64,000 nucleotides of DNA from Vreelandella sulfidaeris (lineage in GTDB: Bacteria > Pseudomonadota > Gammaproteobacteria > Pseudomonadales > Halomonadaceae): positions 3,038,001 through 3,102,000 of the forward strand of contig AP019514.1 of NCBI GenBank assembly GCA_007182875.1. The letters run 5' to 3'. The notes under the pieces are model-generated. The model was given only the letters and a program-made list of their open reading frames with translations, had not been told where the DNA came from and searched no databases. The position numbers and the translations under genes are program-made. This document shows, piece after piece, positions 1 to 15,476 of this stretch. Each line of letters begins with the position of its first letter. Position 1 is the first letter of the stretch.

Positions 1-1
1 C

Positions 2-761
2 AAGGCTGCACAAAAATTGCCGGATGGGCGTGCCCGTATGGCACTGGCATTTGCGCTGGGAGAATGGCCAGTTTGGACGGCTGGCGGTGACGAACAGCAT
101 CCGTATCTAGAAGACCCGAAGGCGCTGCAAGAGGCGATGTACAACACGCTGCTGCTCATATCGTGGAGCCCTGGTGGCGCTGCCCGGACGATGTTCGAGA
201 ATTCCGCGCAGGGTCAACAATTGTCTTGGAACGAGAATATCGATTATGCGGCGTATTTCGAGAACGTAAACCCTGCCGTCAAGAATGCCGTCGAGGTGCT
301 CTATCAAGTGGCGGGGTTGGGACCTCAGGCGGATATTCAAAGGATCAACGAGGCGTCCGGCGTCCTAGCGTCTACTCATGCGCTCGAATATTGGGGCGCT
401 GCCGGCCGCAACGTCGTAGGAGATCCTGAGATTCCTGTGTTTCGATTGCATGGGCTTGGCGATCACCAGATCCCCTACACGCTCATGCCCGGTTATGAGG
501 ATCTGGCAGCCAAAAACGGAAAAGAGGACTTGCTTCGTACAGCATTGCACTGGATAGGCCATCAATCCCGCCGAAAGTACCTTGGCGGTCGGAGTTATGA
601 ACCAACGGTTTGATACCGGGGAATGGCCAAGTACGGAACCGCAAGATCTCAACGAGATGGCGTCCTCCTTGGATATCGAAGGAACGGCACACTTCATGCC
701 CGTGGGCGATTATGACATAGCGTATTTCAATCGAGGCTGGGTCCCCGGCAAAGAAGAGTAG
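2..761 (+). pseudogene. alpha/beta hydrolase, 3' part, frame-broken
   Basis: The reading frame is open at the left window edge and runs to a stop at 613. A second frame then continues from about 558 to a stop at 761 (ending GWVPGKEE). The two halves read as one alpha/beta-hydrolase C-terminus. The first half carries a conserved acid region (RLHGLGDHQIPY) and what looks like the catalytic histidine (HWIGH). The second carries the TGEWP and FNRGWVP tail typical of secreted or periplasmic hydrolases of this type. A single-base indel just after the GH dipeptide (about 557-563) explains the break. The substrate cannot be told. Whether it is a true pseudogene or an indel error is open, since similar indels occur all over the window. 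Confidence 0.6.
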
Positions 762-1018
762 GATCAACGAAATACGCGCGCGCAGGGCGTTACCGTTGCA
801 GCGCGCTTCCTGGCCATGTCTCAGCCAGATTGGATGGAACGTGTCGATGCTCACGGTTTTGCCCTGCCCCGATAGATGCCCCCGTTCTGAGGTCAGTCTG
901 TTTCGATAGAGGAGATGGACGATGCGACGACGAGATATTCATCCTGGGTCGAAACCTTGATCTTCGTGAACATGTCCGCTTCCCTTCTATTGCGACCAGA
1001 ATGGCCGAGATTACTCAT

Positions 1019-1445
1019 TCAGCATGGCCGCCGGCGTGCTGGATGCAGATCAACCATGATGGTGCCGTAACGTTTTGCTCGTTGCCAACTCCAGTCGTCG
1101 ATGTCAACGACCCGAATCGTGGAGTTGCTGTGAGCGACCGACCCTAGTTGTATGGCGCGCATAAGTTGAAGCAACCGTCGGCAGCCAATCGGTGAACGTT
1201 TGCCATACACATCTCTAATGTGCGCTTTGCCAGCGGCTCAGCAGGAACTTAACCGTCACAACCGGCTGATCCTGAAGACTCCAGTTGGACCAGCCGTGCC
1301 GTCTTCGTCTTCGCCGTCCGCAATCGGAGCAAATGCCGACTGTTGATCCGGCAGCGGAAACAACCGAACTCTGTCATCATCAGTGAGTTCGACACCCAGA
1401 ATTTTGACCCCTAGGCCGGGCGACCCTTTCGATTTCCTTTGCATG
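1019..1445 (-). pseudogene. ISL3-family transposase relic
   Basis: Reading the minus strand across two frames gives pieces of an ISL3-type transposase. There is an N-terminal GLGVKILGVELTDD-like start and a zinc-ribbon piece (CSDCGRR). This is followed by LQDQPV, WQTFTDWLP and a STYARHTTRV-like stretch. A downstream block reads RVVDIDDWSWQRAKRYGTI, matching the first catalytic Asp region (family form: VGVDDWAWRKGHRYGTI). Between the ARRTRRV-like block and the VVDIDDW block most of the normal spacer is missing, and in-frame stops occur. The rest of the DDE domain is gone. This is therefore a deleted, inactive relic, not merely an indel-broken gene. Confidence 0.7.
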
Positions 1446-1799
1446 CTCGCCCCTAGGAATAGCGTCGCTAGCAGCGGATGAACCACAGAAATTGAGGAAG
1501 AACCCAATTAACTGCCTAGCGACACGTAGTGAGGCGCACCGACGGGAGCGGACGACATGCCGCTCTCAGCGGACCCCGGAAGCGGCGGGAACGCGCGATG
1601 GCAGATGATTCAGCGACGAGCTCATCAGACGCCAGCCCCGTACTTCGAGCTACGAAGACCCTGTGCTGCGCTCCTCCGACACGATGCTGCCCGAGGCCGG
1701 GCGAAGGTTTCCGGCTGTTGGTCGGTCATCGTTGACCTAAGAAATTTCCGTCCGGCAGTGGCAGCGGCGCTAAAGGATTCCCGTCGAAGTGAGCGTCGA

Positions 1800-2478
1800 T
1801 TGGAGTGTTGACAGTGCAGCTACATGGCTAACCCAGTCGAGCCTGCACCGCCTCTATTAGCACCAAGGCATCAGCCAATTGCCAAAGGGTACCGGGTAGA
1901 AGCGCGAGAAGAAGTCATTCAAGCGCTACCGATCGGTTACCTGCATATCGATATCAGCGAGATTCACACCGGCGAGGGCAAGGCCTATCTGTTTGTCGCG
2001 GTGAACCGAACGTTCAAGTTCGTTCATGCCCAGTTGTACCGGTAGATGACCCGACAGATCGCGCCGAATTTCTCGAAGATACACTGAAAGCCCTACCTTA
2101 CCGCGCCCACACCGTGCTGACGTATAACGGCGTGCAGTTTGCGAAGAAGGCGGGAACCAAGACCTACAAGCCGCATATCTTCGATGTGGTCTGTCATCGT
2201 TACGGGTTGGCTAACGAAGCCCTCCATCCCTGGACCAATGGGCAGGTCAAGCGGATGAATCGAACCATCAAGGAGGTGACCACGCGGGCGTTTCACTGCA
2301 CCTCGCTGGAGCAGTGACAGTCTCACCTGAAGAACTATCTATGGGCCTACAACAGTGCTCGGCCACTCCGGGCGCTCAAGGGCAAAACACCGATTGAATT
2401 TATCCTTGAGAAATGGCAAAAGAGATCGAGAGGTTTTATGGTGATCCGAATCCCCACTTCACGGGACCAAACAGCTAG
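1800..2478 (+). pseudogene. IS481-family transposase relic
   Basis: Three frames together give an rve-type integrase core. They read LTQSSLHRLY then QGISQLP, then YLHIDISEIHTGEGKAYLF (first catalytic Asp), then the HTVLTYNGVQF block, WTNGQVKRMNRTIKE (Glu region replaced in part), NYLWAYNSARPL and FYGDPNPHFTGPN, ending at 2478. The canonical second catalytic Asp of the TDNG motif reads Tyr (TYNG), and several in-frame stops are present, so the copy is dead. The N-terminal helix-turn-helix half (about 1530-1800) is too degraded to follow. Its 3' end touches the MobA relic that follows, so the insertion sequence has lost its right end or overlaps it. Confidence 0.78.
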
Positions 2479-2905
2479 AGAGGCTCGACCCGAAACACGA
2501 GGGGAAAATACGAGACCATACCTGCCCGCTATGTGGTTGGGGTGCGACTAGGCACCCAGCGTAGTCAGGAAATCCCCGGGGCGCTTACTGATGGAGATTC
2601 AGCTAACTAGGGCTAGGGCGTGTTGGATGTGCTGGTTGTAATTGATTTCCCCGCAATACGCCTGAAAATCGGTCATCCATTTCGCTAACAAAGGAAATAT
2701 CTTGCTGGTACCATGGATGGCTATCTGAATCGCCTTTGCACTGAATCCGAAAATTGAAGAAAAACGAACGCGTCGCCAGCCGCAATATTACCTCCGACTA
2801 GCTGGTTTGCGCATCGTATCTTGCATCCTACATTGTGGATGTGAAAGAGATCGACTGGTAATCAGTATACATGATCGGGCAGCGCCTCTGCGATAATTAT
2901 GTCCC
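2472..2905 (+). pseudogene. Decayed second copy of the MobA-type FAD monooxygenase (internal fragment)
   Basis: This stretch aligns base for base, with scattered substitutions and about 10 nt net deletion, to bases about 13470-13895 of the mobA-like gene. Shared translated blocks include ARYVVG, GDSAN followed by a stop where mobA has QAW, GVLDVL (mobA GVMDVL), a DFP-IR block, DGYLNRL (mobA GGYLTRL), ASPAAI (mobA ASRNI, frame-shifted), HRILHP (mobA QRILHP) and GQRLC-like sequence. Several stops and frame changes make it non-functional. Both ends of the gene are missing. The left end runs straight into the IS481 relic, and similarity stops near 2905. Base differences are spread over all codon positions, as in old decay. 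Confidence 0.85.
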
Positions 2906-3053
2906 AATATGTTAAACTTAATTAGCGCATTTGTTAGTGCCCAACCCACTTCAAAAAATAAATATTAATTTTATTTCACTAACGAAGAATGCCTTCACAC
3001 CTATGCTAGGCCAAGCTACATGACGACAAGATAGCACTCCTTACCCCAGCATT

Positions 3054-4266
3054 TTACGAACAAACGGAGCTTACCGCTTGTAAATTTATTGGGAGGGCTT
3101 CAATGCGCACCAGCCAAGCCACAAAAACTAACAACAAAAATCCGATTAAATAAAACCCCCAAGTGATACCAAACATATTGATCGCCGCACCCAGACCAAC
3201 GGGGATGACTACGCCTGCGAGCCGGTTGGCAGTGGAGCGCAACCCCACCGCCAACCCTTGAGTATCGCTGCTCGCTGCCTCTGAAAGCAAGGGAGAGTAG
3301 CAAAGGCATCGATAGCCCCATCCCGGCCCCGTGTAAAATGGCCAAGACTAACAATAGCGTAAAACTAGAAAATGCAGGGGTCACAGCGATAGATAAGATC
3401 GCAAGCGCGACTCCGCTAACTAAAACATGTTCTTGCGAGCCAATCAGTCGAACCACGGAAGCACTGAGCATAGTGAACCCTCCTGAGCAAAGCCCAGCGA
3501 TCCCAACAAGGATGCCAATTTGTATTTTTCCTTGTCCCACGAAATCTAGAGCGACCACGTAGAAAGATGCCTGTACTGTGTACGCAGCGATCCGAATGAA
3601 AGTTGTATAGAGCACAAAGGCAACCTGACGATCGCGCATGGTTTTCAAAGCAGTTAAATGTGTTGTAAGCACTGATCGCGATCCGTAATCAACATGTGTA
3701 TTAGCGCCTTGAAAGCTGCTGCCACAGCTAACGACTAAAAGCGTCAGTGCCGCGCCCCAGGCGGCGACCACTCCAAATGCAGCCCATGGCCCACTGAGCC
3801 CCAGGCCAGGCCGAGCAAAAACGGGCCGCATAAATTGCCCATGCTAGCGGCGAAGCTAAAGCGACTTGCATATAAAGGATCACCCTTCGCAACCTGCCCC
3901 AGAACAGTCTGTGCACACATCCACACGAAAGCCGTTACCACTCCGCCGAACAATTCCAGTAAGATCAGTGCTGATGTAAACGGTAGCACCGGATAAAGTA
4001 GTGGTATGAACATTGATAGGACAGCAAGCACCTGTAGAGTGCGTCGTACGCCCCACTGGTCGAGTAAATTTCCACCGTAAATTGATAACAAAAGCGGCAG
4101 GAAGGAGCGTGCAGAAAGAATGACCCCCAAGTGTGAGGGGGGCAATACCGAGCGATACACCCCACAAGGGTACTGCGAGGCCCATCATGAGCATGGGACT
4201 CAAAGAGAAAAAGCTCAAGGCGTAGAGTGTCCAGCCATGACATTTTTTTTTGCTTGTTTTTGCCAC
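3054..4266 (-). CDS. MFS transporter (frame-broken)
   Basis: Four minus-strand frame segments join into one roughly 400-residue major facilitator protein. They begin MAKTSKKKCHGWTLYALSFF and end INLQAVSSVCS. Long hydrophobic helices are obvious, as are a loop resembling MFS motif A (YGGNLLDQWGVRRT) and a second-half NRLAGVVIPVGLG segment like sugar or aromatic-acid permeases. The frame breaks lie near 4130 (one extra G in a G run), near 3815 (one G too few) and near 3300. No substitution-derived stop was seen, so the breaks may be sequencing indels. The substrate is unknown. It stands alone between a monooxygenase relic and the TRAP genes, so an aromatic-acid or efflux role is only guesswork. 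Confidence 0.7.
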
Positions 4267-4604
4267 AGCCCCTCCCTCTATTAATTATGTGCATTAAGGA
4301 TACTTAATCACCCTCCCACACTTCGGTTTAATGCGGTGATGATGGCTATCAAGGCATTTAAAGTGTGTCATAAACGCTGCGTGTCGAGATCTAGCAACCT
4401 GTAAAAACCAAAAAACAAACAGCACTTACACCTAGCAATTATCCGAACAAAACCCCCTACTACTCTTAAAGCCCTGCCCCGCTGAACCAAGAACGCATTT
4501 AACATGGATAGTAAGGCCACACGCCTAGCTGGGCTATTGGTCACTAAATAGACCCAGCGGCATTTATTGGCTTTAGGGAAGTGGTCATTAAGGTTAAAAT
4601 GAAA
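4267..4604. other. Intergenic, no gene seen
   Basis: There are 338 bases between the start of the MFS gene and the end of the TRAP permease, both on the minus strand. I see no convincing ORF, tRNA or strong hairpin. The sequence should hold the promoter of the MFS gene, but no clear -35/-10 pair stands out. Confidence 0.5.
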
Positions 4605-6528
4605 CTAAATTCTGGGAATATCGATTGTCTTAGTACGTATAAACGCACTACAAATCACGCAGAAACCGAAAACAGCTAGTCCCACTATGTCGGTATAGAA
4701 GCCGCCTGAAAATAGGTCTGTTGGAATGAGCAGTAGGAATCCTCCTATGATCAGCAAGAACCGGAACCATGCTCCTACCATACGACCCATGTAGCCGACA
4801 ATTCCCGCAGTAACCATGTAAATACCCATTATTGCCGAGCCTAGCGCCCAAGTCACTTGCATAGGACTGCCCTCTAGGATTAGCGATGGGGCAAACAGAA
4901 AGAGGAAAGGCACGACATAGGCTGGCCATGCCAGACGCATTGCAGCAATGCTCGTGCTCCACGCACCAGCCCCAGCAATATTGGCAGCCGCAAAGGACGC
5001 TAATGCCACTGGCGGTGTCACCATTGAAAGAAGACCGAAGTAAAAGACGAAGAGGTGTGCCGAGATCACTGGAATGCCTACTTCGACGAGCGCCGGTGCC
5101 ACTAGCGTAGCGAGTAAGATATATACCCTACAGTGGGCATGCCCATGCCCAACACGATGCTAATCAGTGCGGTAATGAGAGCTAGCAGGAAAACATTTTC
5201 ACCGCTTGCATTGATGATATGCAGCGTGAGATTGAAGGCGAGGCCCGAAAGATTGAGTACACCAATGATCAATCCAGCTGCTGCGCACACAATGACGAGT
5301 CCGCTCGCGGCGGCCCCCGCTGAGGCAACAACGGACCAAATATCTCCAAGAGCTATGCGGCGGTCGCGGTAGCCAAAAATTAAGCTAACAGCCAGCAGAG
5401 TGAGAGCCGCCAGAACGGCTGCTCGTTCGGGGCGCATATTTAGAGCGAATAGTGTATAGAAGAGAACTACGAAAGGGATTAGAAAATGCCAGCCCTGACG
5501 CAGCGAATGCCAGCAGGAGGGGGATCTGTGAGGCTTCAACCGCACGAATGTTGCGTTTGGCCGCGTAAAAAGTCGACGTTGATGAAGATGGCGAGGTAGT
5601 ACAACAGTGCCGACGGTAGCGCTGCCATCATAACTGTCGAGTAATCGACACCGATGAAGTCAGCCATGATGAAGGCAGCAGCCCCATGACCGGTGGCACG
5701 AGCTGCCCCCCCTGTGGAGGCTACCGCCTCGACCGAGCCAGCATAGGCAGGGTTGAAGCCTGCTCGTTTCATCATCGGGATCGTTACCACACCGGTGCCT
5801 ACTACATTACCGACCGCACTGCCCGAGATCGATCCGAAAAGGCCTGAGGCAGTGACTGCAACCTTGGCTGGGCCTCCTCGAAAACGCCCCATGCCAGCCA
5901 AGGCTATGTCATTAAAAAAATCAGCCGCACCGCAACGCGCCAGGAGCTGGCCGAACAGCAGGAATGGAATAACGATGATTACCGCCACCTTTAGAGCGGT
6001 GCCAAGCATGCCATTCGCATCGATCGCGAGATAGACCACTAGTTCCGAGGGCGTAGTCTGACGGCTCTGCAGCTCCCTGGAACGAGATGCCCAAATAAAC
6101 CGTAGACTAGAAAAATTAGTACAACCGACAGGATACCAATACCGGCTGAAGCTGGCAGGTTGAGCATGAGCGCAATGAACAGAACAGCACTGGTCGCGAT
6201 CAGCCAGTCCGGAAGATAAGGTGCCTCCATCGATATTGATGGGTAAAGAGCGCGACGTAAAAGCCCACACAGAATATTACAGCGGCGCAGACAAGGTTGG
6301 CCGCCTCTAGCCAGCTGTTGCGGGCGCGCTCCGCCATGATCAGAAAGCCCGCAGAGAGGGAAAGTATGAGAACTAACACTAATAGCTGTACATCGTATAT
6401 CGACATCTCCAGTAGACGATGCACATTGCCAGCATAAGCCACCGGCAACAGTACCATTAATCCCCTAGTAGCCTCTTTGCATGCTTGATTAAAGCGGGAT
6501 CCAGGGAGTTATCTTTCGGCTTTTGCAT
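4605..6528 (-). CDS. TRAP transporter fused permease, TAXI type (DctQ-DctM fusion), frame-broken
   Basis: Segments in several frames combine into a roughly 640-residue polytopic inner-membrane protein. An N-terminal four-helix DctQ-like part (MQKPKDNS start, SIYDVQLLVLVLIL) is followed by a DctM-like part with SGSAVGNVVGTG, STGG and LGMGMPTVG motifs. The tail ends in KTIDIPRI. With its receptor just upstream it would import an organic acid using the Na+ or H+ gradient. The start at 6528 is preferred because it lies 4 nt after the receptor stop. Frame breaks sit near 6450, 6240, 6080, 5540 and 5105. At 5682-5712 two opposite indels in C runs scramble the conserved GGQLVPPVMG-like motif into GGAARATGHG and then restore the frame. 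Confidence 0.85.
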
Positions 6529-6532
6529 GACG

Positions 6533-7490
6533 CTACTCTACCAGCCCGGCTTCGGTATAGTAGCTGATCCCACCTGGGTGATAGCTCAGACCCGGATAGG
6601 TAGGTGCCATGCTAGCTGGCTCGAAGTCAGCGAAAGCCGTAAGGATGCCACGCACTTTCTCAGGATTTTCGTGGAGGAGTTTTACGATTTCATAAACAGT
6701 CTCATCAGGAACATGCTTCCCCGCGGTTAATATATAGTTATACCCCATCATTGGCGTTGGCTCATCCACGCCCACAATGCCATCGCCCGGATCGACTGTT
6801 TTTATATAGGAGGTGGGTACGAATTCCTGCATCGCCTCCTCGGCCTCGGGTGTATCGTTGACAGCAAGCCAGCGAATGCCTACGGCAGCATCTGCCTCGC
6901 GTGTTTTACCACCCTGCAAGGGAGAAAAAGGCCACATCGACGTTGCCCGCGATAAGGTCATCGACACCATTTGGTACAGATGGCACCATATGGGTTTCCA
7001 TGTCTTCAATGTACAACCCTCCAGCGGCGAGAATGCCGTCGACTTGGAACCGTAAGGTCGGCTGTGCTGTGTAGCCATAGGTGATGCTCTTACCTTCGAT
7101 GTCGGAAACTTTGTAGTGATCTGAATCCTCACGCACCATGAACCCATAGGCTGAGGGAGCTCAGAGAGGCTACGATACGAAGATTCTGTAGTGGCCTACC
7201 CTCGAACGGCTCCTGCCCTGAACTGCAGCAGAGATATCAGGGCTCGGGATCAATTGCATGTCCAGCCGACCTGCATCAATCATTGGCATCGACTGTCCCG
7301 ATCCGCCATAGGCTTGCACGCGCACGTCCATCCCTGCCTCATCAGACAGAAACTTCGCCATCCCGGCATTGGCAGCGTAGTTTTGCGAGCCTTGGGTCCC
7401 GGCACCGATACCAAGTGACTGCGCGCTAGCGCCGCTTGCCATAAAAATTGTGGTTCCAAGACAAATCGCACCCAGCATTGCATATTTCAT
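6533..7490 (-). CDS. TAXI family TRAP transporter solute-binding receptor (frame-broken)
   Basis: The product has a signal peptide (MKYAMLGAICLGTTIFMASG, then ASAQ) followed by SLGIGAGTQGSQNYAANAGMAKFL, the start expected of TAXI receptors. The middle segment (KSITYGYTAQPTLRFQVDGIL) and the C-terminal segment (WLAVNDTPEAEEAMQEFVPTS, then a YTEAGLVE end) lie in other frames. Total length is about 315 residues, normal for the family. It is the periplasmic receptor that delivers substrate to the fused permease encoded 4 nt downstream. Indels near 7150 and 6910 break the frame. Ligands of TAXI receptors are usually unknown or dicarboxylates; here the catabolic neighbours suggest an organic acid. 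Confidence 0.85.
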
Positions 7491-7570
7491 GGCGATACTC
7501 CGTTGTTTATTTTATTTTTCGGTGATGGTTAGTTTATTTTTATCGGGTTACTCGTTTCCTGTTGGCCCCC

Positions 7571-8315
7571 TTATATTCCACTGAATCCCGCTCGTGCCAC
7601 CCAATAATCCCAAGCCCGTGCGAGGGGCATAGGGCTTAGCAGCATGGCGCTTGTCTTTTCTATCTCCCCGTCGGTGAGGTAACTCAGCTCTCCTATCTGG
7701 AGTGTGTCATGTATGAGCTTGGCGTTATCCTTCAGCCCGATAGACACCATGCAGACCGCTTTAAGATTATCCGCTGCGCAGACACACCCATGCCCGCGAA
7801 GCAGAGCAACCCGATTCTCCCAAGTGCTCGTGACAGCGAATGCCCCATCTCCATTGAATCGACGAGCATATTGGTGTCGCCGAATTCGACCTGGCTGTCC
7901 CAGGTCTCAATCTCCTGCCGATCACTGACGACATGTGGAAGATCGGGCGCAGCGAGATTGCATTCATCGTGAACGGAAGAATCGAGCGAGCATGATGATG
8001 TGTCACTGCATTCACGTCCGGGCGATCCTTGTAAATCGCGCCGTGAATATGCCGCTCGGCATATGGACGTCGATGGTCATTGCCGATTAGCTCACCATCG
8101 AGTGTAAATTCCATGATGTCGCCACGCGTTACCACTTCGGGGCTCCGCGAGCGCGATATAAAATAACGCTCATGGTTCAAAGGGTTACGCACACTCACAT
8201 GCCCAAAGTCGTCTATCACGTCTTCTCGCGCCAGGATGCGATTGGCAATAACGAGGTTGGTAATGGTCGTCTCAAGAATATCTTCCTCGAAACGTGCTTT
8301 CATGTCTTCGGGCAT
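7571..8315 (-). CDS. Class II aldolase/adducin family protein (frame-broken)
   Basis: The N-terminal 130 residues read as an aldolase II domain: DDFGHVSVRNP, YFISRSRSPEVV, RPYAERHIHGAIYK and the zinc-binding THHHARSILPF. In the next frame the rest follows: ETWDSQVEFGDTNMLVDS, NRVALLRGHGCVCAADNL (third metal His), AVCMVSIGLKDNAKL and a C-terminus ARAGFSGI with a stop at 7571. Total length is about 248 residues, typical of the family. A single indel near 7925 separates the halves. The family includes fuculose-phosphate aldolases, but also aromatic-acid decarboxylases such as the PhtC type, which would fit the aromatic setting. It is the first gene of a minus-strand set with the TAXI-TRAP genes and is divergent from LysR. 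Confidence 0.82.
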
Positions 8316-8399
8316 CTGGTGGCTCCTCCGCCTTTCATAGGGATAGATAATACTTATATTCAGACTAGTTGTGTTTCGTCACGGGAACTAATATATATT

Positions 8400-8415
8400 T
8401 ATACCTTTCTGTATA
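8400..8415. promoter_or_regulatory. Candidate LysR-type operator
   Basis: A perfect inverted repeat TATAC-N6-GTATA lies in the 121-base gap between the divergent class II aldolase and LysR genes. It fits the T-N11-A layout of LysR-type binding sites. Assignment is by position and symmetry only. Confidence 0.45.
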
Positions 8416-8436
8416 CTCATCAAGGTATAGATTCTC

Positions 8437-9350
8437 ATGCGGTCAGTTGCCTCCCAGCTCACCATCCATAAGCTCGAAGTCTTCTGCATAGTCGCAGAGC
8501 TGAAGAGCGTTTCGCGGGCGGCTGAGCGTCTGAATATTGCCCAGCCTGTCGTCTCAGCGCATCTGAAATCGCTTGCGAGTAAGTTAGGAGTCTCACTGAC
8601 GGAAAGAAACGGCCGACGCATCGCACTGACCGAAGAAGGCCATCGCGTGTACAAGTGGGCTCAGGATGTCGTCATCCGCACTCAAGAGTTCGAACGCGAG
8701 ATAGCCGATACCCAGCGCGGGCTGGCCGGCAAGGCCAAAATCGGTGCCTCAATGACTCTGGGCTCTTACGTTCTTCCTGGTATTATCGCACCAATCAAAC
8801 AGCGTTATCCCCAGGGAGAGATATCAGTGCAAGTGACTGATTCGATACTGGTTCCAGATGCGGTGAGACAAGGCGAATGCGACTTTGCTTTTACCATTTT
8901 AGATCCACGCCATGATATCGCCGGTCTGGAGGTACAACGGGTGCGGGACGAACGCCTGATCCTCGTGGCATCGAACAGATCCGAGACCAAGGCGAAGAGC
9001 GTAGCGCTCGATGAACTCTCAGAACTTCCATTCGTCACAGCTCAGTTACGTACTCCTCGTCGTGATATCGAGGAGCGCTTATTAATGGAGTTTGGCGTAT
9101 CACGCAAACAGATTGTGATGGAATTTGGCCATGCCGAAGCTATAAAGCAAGCAGTGCGCGCTGGTGCGGGTGTTGCCTTCTTGTTTCAGTCTTCGGTTCG
9201 AGATGAACTTGCCTCAGGCTCACTGAGGAGACTAGAGACATTGGGTATGGAGCTACGCGTTCCGTTCTACCTGGTTTACCGAAAAATAAGAATTTGACCA
9301 AATTCCAAACCACGATGCTGGACGAAATAAGCCTCGCATTACGCGATTAA
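8437..9350 (+). CDS. LysR-family transcriptional regulator
   Basis: An N-terminal winged helix-turn-helix (LEVFCIVAELKSVSRAAERL, PVVSAHLKSLASKLG) is followed by a periplasmic-binding-like effector domain of about 200 residues, ending near LVYRK. A small indel in the A run at about 9284 splits off the last 20 residues (LTKFQTTMLDEISLALRD). Restoring it gives about 304 residues, the usual LysR size. The gene is divergent from the aldolase/TRAP set and converges on the ThDP gene, with the two stop codons overlapping (9347-9350). It probably senses an intermediate and controls one or both gene sets. The inverted repeat at 8400-8415 is a plausible site. Confidence 0.9.
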
Positions 9351-11097
9351 CCTGCTGATCGCATCGCTTGCACCATCGAGGGCGCGTAGCCCTTAGCCGC
9401 TTCGATTTCAAGTACTGCTACGCCGCCACTCTCGACCACCTCCAGAGCATTGCTTATAGCTTTCATCACCGCAGTAGGTGAAGTCAGCAAACCATAGCTT
9501 GTCGCGCCGAAGCCTTGAGCTATCGCACTGACATCAATGTCGGGTCCGTTCATCACGATGCCCACATGCTTGTTCTCGACGGGGCGTTCCCGCTCCTTCG
9601 CAACCGACTCTTGGTGTACTTCATCGTTATAGAACGAATGGTTATTCACGACGACAATCATTAAGGGGACGCCCTGGTTGACTGCCGTCCAAAGAGCCGA
9701 AGCGTTCATCAGAAAGTCGCCATCGCCTAGTACCGCCAGTGGCAAGTGCTTTAAGCCCTCGTCACGCAGGGCTAATGCCGCACCCACCGCCATCCCTGGG
9801 CCGGAACCAATTCCGCCACCACCATCATAACCCAGGGAGCCAAACGGATGGGAAACGGGCCAATCCGCGCCGGTCCAGCTGAGTGGAGCGCGTATCAGAC
9901 AAACAGAGCGCTTATTCACACCTCGGCGTAGGAGCACTGCGATATCCTGCGATGTCATCGTGCCGCCCTTTACTTCGTCCGGCAAGGAAAGCGCAGGTAA
10001 GGGAACTGTTTCCTGTGCTTCCAAAGCTTCCACTAGCGCGGCAACAACCTGGTCAGGCTCATTAAGGAAGGCTACATCGGCCGGGGCGGGGGCGCCGCCA
10101 TCCTTTACCCAGCCGCGATGATTGTGAACGTCGATCGTGGCCGAGATTATTCTTGCCGGCACCGGCCGATCACCAAAACCGAACGCAATGTCCCACCGAA
10201 GTCTAGCCAGTCGAGATTCACTATGATCTCGGCTTCAGCAATTGCCGCCTTGGCTTTCGGATCGGGAAGTAGCCTGCATGACCGATATTCGCGCCATGAG
10301 CGCTGGGGAAGGTCGCGCCGGTCTTGAAATCTGTCACCACCTGCGCTCCAAGACGCTCAACAAACGCGATGCGGCGCGTCCAATCCGTATAATCATGCGA
10401 CATGCGCCCCATAAGAACGACGATTTTTTGCACCTGACAACAGCATTGCAGCCTCATTCACCAAATCAGGTACAGGCGCCCCGGTCCGCGGCGCTCCTCG
10501 CCGCGATATATCAATTTCGGGCAGCGGCGCATCTAAAGCCTTCTCCTGCAGTGCTGCATCGATATTAATATAGACCGGACCGCGTGGAGCAGTTCCCGCA
10601 CGGGAAACTCCTTCAACCAATGCATGAAGAGTGGCCGTGACTCCTCCAGGTTGATCATCCCACTTTACAAAATCTCGGATCAGTGAACCCTGATCCTGCG
10701 AGGTATGAATCCAGTCGATCCAGGAGCGCCGCTGGGTGGCATCAACTGGACCCGTAGCCCCTAGGACTACCATAGGCACCCGGTCGCACCAAGCATTGTA
10801 AATACCCATGGAACCATGCATCAAACCCACATTTGAATGTAGCGCGACTCCCATGGCACGCCCCGTCACCTTAGCGTAACCATGCGCAATGGCAACCGCT
10901 GCTTCTTCATGTACACATAACAATAGCCGCGGGTCATTGTGGGTAAAGTTCACTAAGCTATCGTGAAGCCCACGGTAACTTGCGCCAGGATTGAGTGCGA
11001 TATAGTTAAGCTCAAGACCCTGTAAGGTTTTGGCTATCGCATCCGAACCCCAGCAGGGGACGTCATTATTGGATTTATGGCTCATGATTACGCTCAC
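9347..11097 (-). CDS. Thiamine-diphosphate-dependent enzyme, benzoylformate decarboxylase/acetolactate synthase superfamily (frame-broken)
   Basis: The N-terminal pyrimidine-binding domain shows the catalytic Glu block VHEEAAVAIAHGYAK and an ALHSNVG loop like the LHS loop of benzoylformate decarboxylase. The middle domain is indel-broken around 10160-10400. The C-terminal domain has the ThDP/Mg motif from GDGDFLMN through VVVNN. Total length is about 583 residues. The GTG start at 11097 overlaps the aldehyde dehydrogenase stop by 4 nt (GTGA), so the two are translationally coupled; an ATG 12 nt further in is an alternative. A decarboxylase that makes an aldehyde for the coupled dehydrogenase is the simplest reading. 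An aromatic 2-keto acid substrate is inferred from the MobA neighbour. Confidence 0.82.
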
Positions 11098-12550
11098 GAC
11101 AGCATGATATTGATGGTTTTGGATTCGGTGTAGCTAAGCAGCTCATCGCGCCCTTCCTCTCGACCTACACCACTGGATTTCATACCGCCGAAGGGCACCC
11201 CCAAAAAATGCATGCTCGATCCGTTGATCCAGATATGCCCCGACCGGATCCGTCGCGCCATCTTCAACGCTGCGTTAATGTCATGTGTCCAGACAGCAGC
11301 AGTCAGGCCATATTCGGTGCTATTGGCCATGGCAACCGCCTCTTCGAAGTCTCTCCAGCGACCTATCGCCATGACAGGGCCAAACACTTCTTGCTGCCAA
11401 AGACGCAGCTCCGGCGTCACGTCGGCGTATACTGTGGGTGCTACCCAATACCCCTTGCGAAACTGTTCCCCTTCTGGCCGCCCACCGCCCAGCATTCGGC
11501 GCGCGCCATCCGCATCGGCATTTGCGCAATGTGCCAGGATACGCTGCATGTGCAGCTCGGAGTTGACCGGGCCCACATCGGTCTCGTCGCTCAGTGGATC
11601 GCCGATGCGCAGCGCGGCGACGCGTTCTACCACTGCCTTGAGTACGCGATCGTATATATCTTCATGCAAGAGCAGCCGGCTAAGCGACCCGCAGGATTGG
11701 CCCTGCCAGGAAAAAGTTCATGCCGAACACAGCGGCGTCAGCGATCTTCTCGGGATCACAGTCAGGAAATACAATCATTGGGTTCTTACCGCCCAACTCT
11801 AGCGTGATGTGCTTGACCGCAACCTCAGCCGCCGACCGCTGAATAGCACGGCCAGTCTCGGGCGAACCGATGAAAGCAATCCGCTTGATACCCAGATGCC
11901 GAACGATAGCGTTGCCAACAACAGCGCCGTCACCGGTTACGATGTTAAATACGCCCGGCGGCAGGGTATCCCGGGCGATCTCGGCAAGCACCATCGCCGA
12001 TAACGGAGACGTCTCGGGCGGCTTTACTATCACTGCGTTGCCTGCCGCCAGCGCCGCGGCGGTACGTGCGACAGCGAACATGATGGGGTGATTGAAAGGC
12101 GCAATCCGCGCCACTACCCCATAAGGCTCGTGCATCGTCAGGTGCAGGTTGTCGGAGGTTGCCGGGATGGTGTCGCCCCGTAGATCGGGAGCAAGCCCGG
12201 CGTAGTACCGCAAGCTTTCCACAGCGGATGGTACATCGATCATTCGCATCGGCCGGATCGTGTTGCCTGTGTCGCTGACCTCAATTCTTAGAATCTCTTC
12301 CGCACGGGCCGCTATAGCGTCGGCGAAGCGATTCATGGCCGCGGCCCGTTCCATCGGTGTCAATGCCGCCCAGGCGGGCTGCTTTTTCTGCCGCCTGGAC
12401 GGCCCGGTCCACATCTTCTGACGAACCGGCTGGCACCCGTCCAATTGGTTCTTCCGTCGCGGGATTAATGGATGTTATCCATTCGCCGGTAACGCTTTCA
12501 ACAAGCTCACCCCCAATCAACATACGCTCGGCCTCGCAGATACGCTCCAT
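11094..12550 (-). CDS. NAD(P)-dependent aldehyde dehydrogenase (frame-broken)
   Basis: The protein has about 485 residues in three frames. It starts MERICEAERMLIGGELVES. It then shows the cofactor-binding Asn region (VARIAPFNHPIMFAVARTA), KPPETSPLSA, the Glu motif LELGGKNPMIV, catalytic Cys in GQSCGS, and EVFGPVM with GGMKSSGVGREEG at the end. All landmark residues of the superfamily are present once the breaks near 12400 and 11690 are allowed for. It is the promoter-proximal gene of a two-gene unit with the ThDP enzyme (4-nt overlap) and is divergent from mobA. A role in oxidising the aldehyde produced by the ThDP enzyme is inferred; benzaldehyde-type dehydrogenases belong to the same superfamily. 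Confidence 0.88.
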
Positions 12551-12895
12551 CTTGTTTTCCTCTTGCGTCTCCTTAGATGCAGACAGTAATGCATGGAAGC
12601 GCAGCCCACAGTCAAATATATATATCTAGCTATATATATAGCCACTTCGATATATCTGTGAAAACAAAAATATGCCTACCTGAATAAGGATGCCGACTCA
12701 TCGAAAACGTGGCCGAGCATAGCGCTAGAAGCGGGGAGGCCCTAACTATTCGTAATCGTGGAAACGATGAGATCTTGGTTATGTCAAGTATAATTAACTT
12801 TAATGAGCATAAGCACAAAGGCTAATTGCTAACGAGACATGACATCACAATAATATTGATCACAATAGTGATCAGTAAATACCGATGAGGCCCGC
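12551..12895. promoter_or_regulatory. Divergent promoter region between aldehyde dehydrogenase and mobA
   Basis: There are 345 bases with no gene. Next to the dehydrogenase start is a long alternating AT tract (about 12615-12640), likely part of its promoter. Next to mobA is an 18-bp palindrome (listed separately). A purine-rich GAGG lies 5 nt before the mobA ATG. Confidence 0.5.
12857..12874. promoter_or_regulatory. Candidate MarR-type operator of mobA
   Basis: A perfect palindrome TGATCAC-AATA-GTGATCA lies 22 bases before the mobA start codon. Its length (18 bp) and tight centre suit MarR-family dimers. The only MarR gene in the window sits directly downstream of mobA, and MobR of Comamonas is known as a MarR-type repressor of mobA. 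The binding partner is inferred. Confidence 0.6.
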
Positions 12896-14840
12896 ATGCA
12901 ATTTCATCTCAATGGATTCCAGACCGGCGACCCGACCATCCACGAGCCTGTTAGTGAGCTCGCCAATGCCGACCAGCTACCCAAGGAGGTCGATGTGTTG
13001 ATTGTCGGCTGTGGACCGGCCGGCTTGACCTTGGCAGCCCAGCTATCGGCCTTCCCGAGATTCGCACCCGCATCGTCGAGCAGAAGGATGGCCCGATAAA
13101 GCTCGGCCAGGCCGACGGCATCGCTTGTCGCACCATGGAGATGTTCAATGCCTTCGGCTTCGTTGAAAAGGTGATGAAGGAGGCCTGCTGGATCAACGAG
13201 ACGGTGTTCTGGAAGCCGGATGAAGATAACCGCAAGAACATCATGCGCCACGGTCGCATCCAGGACACCGAAGACGGCCTCTCCGAGTTCCCGCATACGG
13301 TGCTCAACCAGGCCCGGATCCATGACTTCTATCTGGAGCTAATGCGCAACTCAGCGAGTCGCCTGAAGCCGAACTACTCGCGCCGCGTGGTCGATGTGGT
13401 GGTCGATCCCGCCCAGGCCGATGCGGTCACTCTGGGCGCCGAGGCGTACCCGGTGACGGTTAAGCTTGAGCGTACCGATGATGCTCACAAGGGCAGCGTG
13501 GAAACCGTACGGGCCCGCTATGTGGTGGGCTGTGACGGCGCGCGCAGCGCGGTGCGTCAGTCCCTAGGCCGCGCCCTGCAGGGTGATTCCGCCAACCAAG
13601 CCTGGGGCGTGATGGATGTGCTGGCGGTCACCGATTTCCCAGACATCCGCATGAAGGCGGCGATCCACTCCGCTAACGAAGGCAATATCCTGATCATCCC
13701 GCGAGAGGGCGGCTACCTGACGCGCCTCTACATCGAACTCGACAAGCTCAAGGAAGACGAGCGTGTCGCCAGCCGCAACATTACCTCCAACCAGCTGGTC
13801 ACCGCAGCGCAGCGGATCCTGCACCCTTACATCCTGGACGTGAAGGAAATCGCCTGGTGGTCGGTATACGATATCGGCCAGCGTCTATGCGACAAGTTCG
13901 ACGACGTGCCCCTCGAAGAAGTCGGCAGTCGCGCTCCCCACTTGTTCATCGCCGGCGACGCCTGCCACACCCACAGCCCCAAGGCGGGCCAAGGCATGAA
14001 TGTCTCGATGCGCGACACCTTCAACCTGGGCTGGAAGATAGCCTCGGTGCTGCAGGGCAAGGCCTCACCGGCGCTGCTAGACACCTATACCACCGAGCGT
14101 CAGACCGTGGCCAAGGAGCTGATCGACTTCGACCGAACGTTTGCCAAGATGTTCAGCGCCCCGCCCAAGGGCTCACCCGAGGACAAGGGCGACGGCGTAG
14201 ATCCCAAGGAATTCCAGAAGTATTTCGTCAAGCAGGGCGCTTCACCGCCGGCACGGCAATCCAGTACTACCCTCGCTGATCTCCGCCGAGCCGACCCATC
14301 AGCATCTTGCCAAGGGCCTGGAGATCGGGATGCGTTTCCACTCCGCGCCGGTGGTTCGCCTCTCCGATGCCAAGCCCATGCACTTAGGCCACACGGTGAA
14401 AGCGGATGGCCGCTGGCGGCTGTTCGCCTTCGCCGACGCCAGCGATCCCGCCGCGCCGGAGTCCGGACTCAGCGGCCTGTGCCGGTTCCTGAGCGACTCC
14501 CTGACTCCCCGGTACGCAAGTACACACCGCCAGGGGATGCCGTTGACTCGATATTTGACCTGCGAGCCATCTGCCAGCAGGGTTTCCGCGAGCTCTCCCT
14601 GGATGCCTTCCCCAGCTGCTGTGGCCGCGCAAGGGACGTTACGGACTGCACGACTACGAGAAGGTCTTTTGCCCCGATCTGAAGAACAAGCGGGACATCT
14701 TCGACATGCGCGGCATCGACCGGGAGCAAGGCTGTCTGGTGATCGTGCGTCCCGATCAGCACATCGCAAATGTGCTGCCGCTGGAGGCCCATGAAGAGCT
14801 GGCGGCTTATTTCGCCCGCTTCATGCTGGAGGCAGGCTGA
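12896..14840 (+). CDS. mobA: 3-hydroxybenzoate 4-monooxygenase-like FAD monooxygenase (frame-broken)
   Basis: A flavoprotein hydroxylase of about 645 residues, matching the length and sequence style of MobA (3-hydroxybenzoate to protocatechuate with NADPH and O2). The order is: N-terminus MQFHLNGFQTGDP, FAD motif VGCGPAGLTLAAQL, KLGQADGIACRTMEMF, the ARYVVGCDGARS motif, GDACHTHSPKAGQGMN, then a thioredoxin-like C-terminal domain ending near FARFMLEAG. Indels near 13055 and 14240 (each one G short), 14275, about 14500 and 14610 break the frame, and no nonsense substitution was seen. A phenol 2-monooxygenase of the same family is the main alternative. MarR lies 167 nt downstream and a palindromic operator lies upstream. 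A decayed partial copy lies at 2472-2905. Confidence 0.85.
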
Positions 14841-15006
14841 CCTATACTCTGCTGGCGGCAGCCTGCCAGGGCACCGTTCCCGTCAGGCACCTGCTTCGCC
14901 GGTGAAACTGGCTGGCCAGTAGTCCCAGAGCCAGAGCCTAAAAGCCGTGACCCGCAGAGGACCATGGCTTGTGTCTTTCATCCATTTCCTTGAGCAGACC
15001 GAGAAC

Positions 15007-15476
15007 ATGACCGAATCTCCGCTTTCCCAGGCCAACGCTCTGCCCGGCAACCTGCTTCGGCGCTGCCATCAGATCAGCGTGGCGATCTTCCTGCGCAAGT
15101 GCGAGGCCAACAATCTCACCCAGCTGCAGTACATAATCCTCTCCGCCTTGGACGAGATGGGCTCGCTGGACCAGATCACTCTCGGCGGCTTCACGGCGCT
15201 CGATCGCAACACCGTAGCGATTGTGGTGAAAAGCTCGAGGAGCGCGGCTTGGTCGATCGACGCCGCAGCCCCGAGGATCGCCGCTCGATGCTGGTCACCA
15301 TCACCGAGGCCGGCAAGGCATTGCGCGTAGAGGCCGAGCCCGCCGTGATCCAGGCCCAGGAGGATATCCTCGCCCCGCTGAACGAGGGAGGAACGCGAGC
15401 AGGTCTGCGGCCTTTGCAGCGCTTGGCCGATGAAAACAATGCCCTAAGCCGGGTGCCTATCCGCCGCGCCGGTTGA
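15007..15476 (+). CDS. MarR-family regulator, MobR-like (frame-broken)
   Basis: The product has about 156 residues. It starts MTESPLSQANALPGNLLRRC, and the winged-helix part reads QLQYIILSALDEMGSLDQITL, then ALDRNTVAIVV. In the next frame come KLEERGLVDRRRSPEDRRSML (the wing) and a dimerisation helix ending ADENNALSRVPIRRAG. One A is missing in the A run near 15230. A compensating pair of indels near 15390 and 15415 garbles a short stretch (GGTRAGLRP). It follows mobA on the same strand. In Comamonas a MarR protein (MobR) represses mobA, so the same role is likely. Its terminator downstream has been split by an insertion sequence. Confidence 0.82.

Follow-up and report, generated by a model that had tools for sequence, protein, structure and literature searches.

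Our analysis showed that the decayed central part of a MobA-type hydroxylase gene lies at positions 2474-2896, on the plus strand, of the window, i.e., the whole 64,000-nucleotide stretch of Vreelandella sulfidaeris DNA analyzed here. The fragment corresponds to approximately residues 188-340 of a 649-residue protein and lies 10 kb from a full-length gene of the same type (12896-14841, plus strand), referred to below as the resident copy. It is very likely a pseudogene fragment of an ordinary kind, without present function, left by a second MobA-type gene apart from the resident copy; this second gene would have lost selection, decayed, taken up an IS481-family element and then undergone deletions.

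Identity and decay of the hydroxylase relic

The relic was characterized by local alignment, nhmmer and tblastn, together with a codon-position test and the inspection of stops and indels. When positions 2400-3000 were aligned to 12896-14840, the stretch 2512-2896 paired with 13501-13895 of the resident copy, with 285 of 382 bases identical (74.6%) and 10 gap openings; the score of 217 compares with a maximum of 30 among 300 dinucleotide shuffles. A DNA profile of 14 intact relatives matched positions 2472-2901 with 254 bits (nhmmer, E 8.2e-78) and the resident copy with 1970 bits. In the window and the 19.9 kb upstream of it, the sole other profile match at E < 5 was the resident locus (12896-14833), followed by one chance-level match (E 5.2), and across the whole assembly (4.48 Mb, 2 contigs) the resident gene was matched at E ≤ 0.01 in two places only, the relic and its own locus. 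An earlier note on this DNA had described a second, decayed MobA-type fragment 10 kb from the other copy; both the alignment, with a score far above that of shuffles, and the profile bear this out. On a common alignment, the relic is most similar to three relatives at 71.4%, with the resident copy at 71.1%.

The name rests on similarity to MobA, the 3-hydroxybenzoate 4-hydroxylase of Comamonas (PDB 2DKH), and to the family NF006144 (phenol 2-monooxygenase). The orthologue of the resident copy in V. titanicae aligns with 2DKH over nearly the full length (928 bits, 1-645 of 649 residues) and scores lower with two phenol hydroxylases, 1PN0 (403 bits) and 1FOH (401 bits), so the label "MobA-type" appears fair for the resident copy, as a name given by similarity. 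The resident frame at 13135-14682 scores 660 bits against NF006144, above the cut-off of 560. The relic corresponds to the central part of this gene, and the significant match between what it retains and intact members marks it as a former member of this group. In contrast to those members, it retains only about 150 of 649 residues, interrupted by stops, and neither protein end; it does not qualify as a working gene. The FAD-binding ends of such hydroxylases carry a GxGxxG motif near the start and a GD motif later.

Homology to the two best-scoring intact relatives begins at 2474, while its start ranges between 2472 and 2524 among the 25 of 80 relatives listed; the right edge falls at 2896-2901. 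As the earlier note had remarked, no open reading frame marks the relic: none of at least 60 aa crosses it on the plus strand, and one minus-strand frame of 60 aa (2603-2785) overlaps it. The stops and small deletions mentioned there are present as well, with five in-frame stops in 136 aligned codons (at 2549, near an indel where the alignment is less sure, and at 2608, 2614, 2799 and 2859) and, over 0.41 kb, 8 indels whose lengths are not divisible by three. By comparison, seven neighboring gene intervals (9.3 kb in total, the resident hydroxylase included) show 31 frame-shifting indels when aligned to V. titanicae. The indel density of the relic is thus approximately six times this background (Poisson P about 1e-4), with the two counts coming from different alignments with different partners. 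The assembly is rich in indels, and some of those in the relic may be errors.

We also examined the distribution of substitutions over codon positions, a check proposed in the same note. In columns that do not vary among 11 intact halomonad copies, the relic has changed at 14 of 104 first, 20 of 125 second and 4 of 13 third positions, whereas intact copies left out singly differ at 0-3, 0-1 and 0-4, respectively. The relic therefore exceeds all intact copies at positions 1 and 2, which have changed about equally, and stays within their range at position 3, where columns are few (4 of 13 versus up to 4 of 17). C>T and G>A account for 20 of the 38 changes at invariant columns, and the GC content of the relic is 50.4%, compared with 61.7% in the resident copy. 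This pattern of substitutions, stops and indels is that of neutral decay.

Among 250 genomes of the family, a sample of a larger group in which two candidates were scored per genome and a further relic could be missed, 11 matched, one of them being the genome of the window itself. The remaining ten did not show another relic: nine gave matches to a near full-length gene (L153-L161), and the tenth (G008) has an open gene.

The IS481 junction and the probable order of events

The left edge of the relic abuts a truncated and decayed IS481-family element (1827-2473, plus strand), as had been noted earlier. What remains is ~660 bp from the right end of an element of ~1,000 bp, whose ends were defined from related copies, and it is 80.6% identical to an annotated IS481-family transposase gene of Halomonas sp. 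KO116; four in-frame stops interrupt it. Most related copies with both ends located are 1,002 bp long, with ends like TGTTTGGTCCC and GGGACCAAACA. The right terminal repeat of the relic element, CGGGACCAAACA, occupies positions 2460-2473, directly followed by GCTAGA (2474-2479, plus strand), inside the former hydroxylase frame; the intact V. titanicae gene reads GCTAGAG at the aligned place. Duplication of an NCTAGN target has been described for an IS481-family element in Leifsonia (PMC2516522). Among 16 other copies with a located right end, two of which (L135 and L136) have identical flanks and may represent a single element shared by two related genomes, CTAG stands in the right-flank position in 10 and is lacking there in six, and 13 have it at either end. 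An identical 6-bp flank on both sides, i.e., a perfect duplication, was found in three of the 10 copies with both ends located. The frequency of CTAG in the window is 2.5 per kb.

The hydroxylase gene was most likely the site into which the element inserted, because the terminal repeat ends at 2473, the adjoining GCTAGA fits both the NCTAGN target and the hydroxylase frame, and CTAG flanks other copies. It resembles its family in transposase homology, terminal repeat and right-hand CTAG flank, and differs in having four stops and in lacking the left third with the left repeat, so that of the two inverted terminal repeats only the right one is there. Of the target duplication the right copy, GCTAGA, is present and the left copy missing; the insertion is read from one junction. 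A search of window positions 1-6000, allowing up to 3 mismatches in 15, did not find the left terminal repeat. Likewise, neither the left third of the element nor the missing 5' half of the hydroxylase gene was found in window positions 1-1827 or in the 19.9 kb upstream. Elsewhere, this genome contains another IS481 end fragment, shorter than the first (L130, G000:C1:3865512-3865620) and flanked by TCTAGT, also a CTAG target.

The unequal decay of the two relics suggests an order of events. The IS relic differs at 30 of 396 first and second codon positions at which two intact IS copies agree, and the hydroxylase relic at 39-45 of 248-258 such sites, depending on which of five reference pairs is used (Fisher p 0.00015-0.0016), a comparison that assumes equal neutral rates and uses reference pairs that differ in constraint between gene and IS. 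As the IS shows the lesser decay of the two, the gene had probably begun to die before the element arrived. Accordingly worded as a sequence of steps, the second MobA-type gene would first have lost selection and gathered stops and indels; the IS481-family element would then have landed in the dying gene at the CTAG target at 2474-2479; and later deletions would have removed the 5' half of the gene together with the left third of the IS, as well as the 3' part past 2896. These deletions we infer rather than observe directly. The reverse order, in which IS481 killed the gene and both then decayed together, draws on a junction that lies within the reading frame at a CTAG target also present in the intact V. 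titanicae gene. We consider it rather unlikely, given that, at positions 1 and 2, decay of the gene is roughly double that of the IS.

Origin of the relic and the resident copy

The placement of the relic in trees rests on ~420 bases, and its branch is long (0.49-0.75). In a first tree of 431 columns and 82 rows, it joined L035, a Rubrobacteraceae MAG, on a long branch, and L035 was again the best branch in later sets, with weak support; we suspect long-branch attraction. The second set comprised 30 of the 82 rows. The third combined 21 of 80 gene loci and nine additional ones with the resident copy and the relic; removing six near-duplicates reduced these 32 rows to 26. The AU p-values given below are uncorrected for the number of placements compared (55 in the 30-row set and 47 in the 26-row set), and the simulations, 40 per tree, used one model along the whole tree with no rate change at gene death.

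In the trees, the resident copy clusters with those of V. titanicae and V. nanhaiensis and is sister to the former. When the relic was placed as sister of the resident copy, the likelihood fell 10.8 log units below the best (26-row set, AU p 0.037; in the 30-row set, AU p 0.066 and 0.044), whereas data simulated on that tree never gave a shortfall above 2.25. Placing it on the stem of V. titanicae and the window copy cost 7.4 log units (AU p 0.109), against a simulation maximum of 4.05. The best branches are L035 and the stem of L031 (Marinobacter azerbaijanicus), L032 (Billgrantia lactosivorans), L154 and L156 (AU p 0.88), where the observed shortfall of 0.04 compares with up to 4.36 in simulations. 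Among columns private to one copy or group, the relic shares 2 of 5 with the resident copy, 3 of 26 with V. titanicae, 1 of 4 with the two together, 2 of 4 with the L031 clade, 2 of 2 with the L033 clade and 3 of 4 with L034 and L049, all group counts being too few to decide.

Based on these tree tests, the relic is probably an older paralog or a foreign relative (xenolog), with ~420 bases being too short to tell which, and not a recent duplicate of the resident gene. A within-lineage copy of the present gene that subsequently decayed would agree with the location of both copies in the same genome, 10 kb apart and on the same strand, with the place of the resident copy among the most similar sequences, and with the two of five resident-only columns that the relic shares. 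The cost of the sister placement makes such a duplication quite unlikely, as do third codon positions, at which the relic differs from the resident copy (66 of 138) as much as from two other intact copies (65 and 66 of 138). Of the suggestion that two paralogous hydroxylases were once present, a second and separate MobA-type gene therefore stands, while its origin may be that of a paralog or of a xenolog. Tentatively, and with less than even confidence, the relic may be what remains of a hydroxylase from another halomonad or Marinobacter-type lineage that existed alongside the resident enzyme before being lost at a rearrangement junction.

The earlier note had also offered that an older copy was displaced by the current one, i.e., that the relic is the original vertical copy and the gene at 12896 a later replacement. 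Two copies of different ages within 10 kb, and an AU test that leaves the relic on the stem of V. titanicae and the window copy unrejected, would fit. Nevertheless, this displacement is very unlikely, given the stem's likelihood deficit beyond all 40 simulations and the setting of the gene at 12896, which lies within a stretch collinear with V. titanicae (window 4659-12658, 79.4%; 12845-15307, 73.6%). This collinear block, together with the grouping with the V. titanicae and V. nanhaiensis copies, makes the gene at 12896 look like the resident copy. The relic had furthermore been taken to date the aromatic function as old in this lineage; it is weak evidence for such an age, for which the synteny shared with V. 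titanicae is the better evidence.

Genomic surroundings and assembly errors

When compared to V. titanicae, the right side of the region is collinear and the left block differs in order and orientation. Between them, from ~1.8 kb before the window to position 4659, a blastn comparison with a 36.9-kb region surrounding the V. titanicae gene found no counterpart except the hydroxylase match of the relic, leaving a gap of ~6.5 kb. The relic thus seems to lie within an IS-scarred rearrangement junction. The minus strand at 3100-4266 carries a frame-broken MFS-like transporter gene, with Pfam matches just below the curated cut-off. Nucleotide searches found no match to it in 96 other genomes, with three candidates scored per genome (E ≤ 1e-10), and none in a plasmid collection (E ≤ 1e-5); the gene is possibly foreign. 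Adjoining the resident hydroxylase, positions 4605-12444 contain genes for a TRAP transporter, an NMT1-like protein, a class II aldolase, LysR, a TPP enzyme and an aldehyde dehydrogenase, which are collinear in V. titanicae and may constitute an aromatic or hydroxymandelate-type pathway.

The resident copy had been called the working copy. It is full-length and has the codon pattern of a constrained gene, but its frame is broken in this assembly, as is that of the essential gene rpoB (G000:C1:188081-192116), which is split over several frames; the listed assembly completeness is 74.6%. Because rpoB and the neighboring genes also carry frame-shifting indels, the breaks in the resident copy, identified as a hydroxylase gene by NF006144, nhmmer and V. 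titanicae synteny, are probably assembly indels. That the relic is likewise nothing but an error-ridden copy of an intact gene, as the state of rpoB in the same assembly might suggest, is next to impossible in view of its 25% substitution difference, the truncation of both ends and its excess of indels over neighboring genes.

Since rpoB is broken too, broken frames elsewhere in the window and the assembly should not be read as decay or as pseudogenes. The hydroxylase relic, for its part, illustrates one possible route to the death of a spare catabolic gene, by point decay, followed by the landing of an IS481 element and then by deletion.
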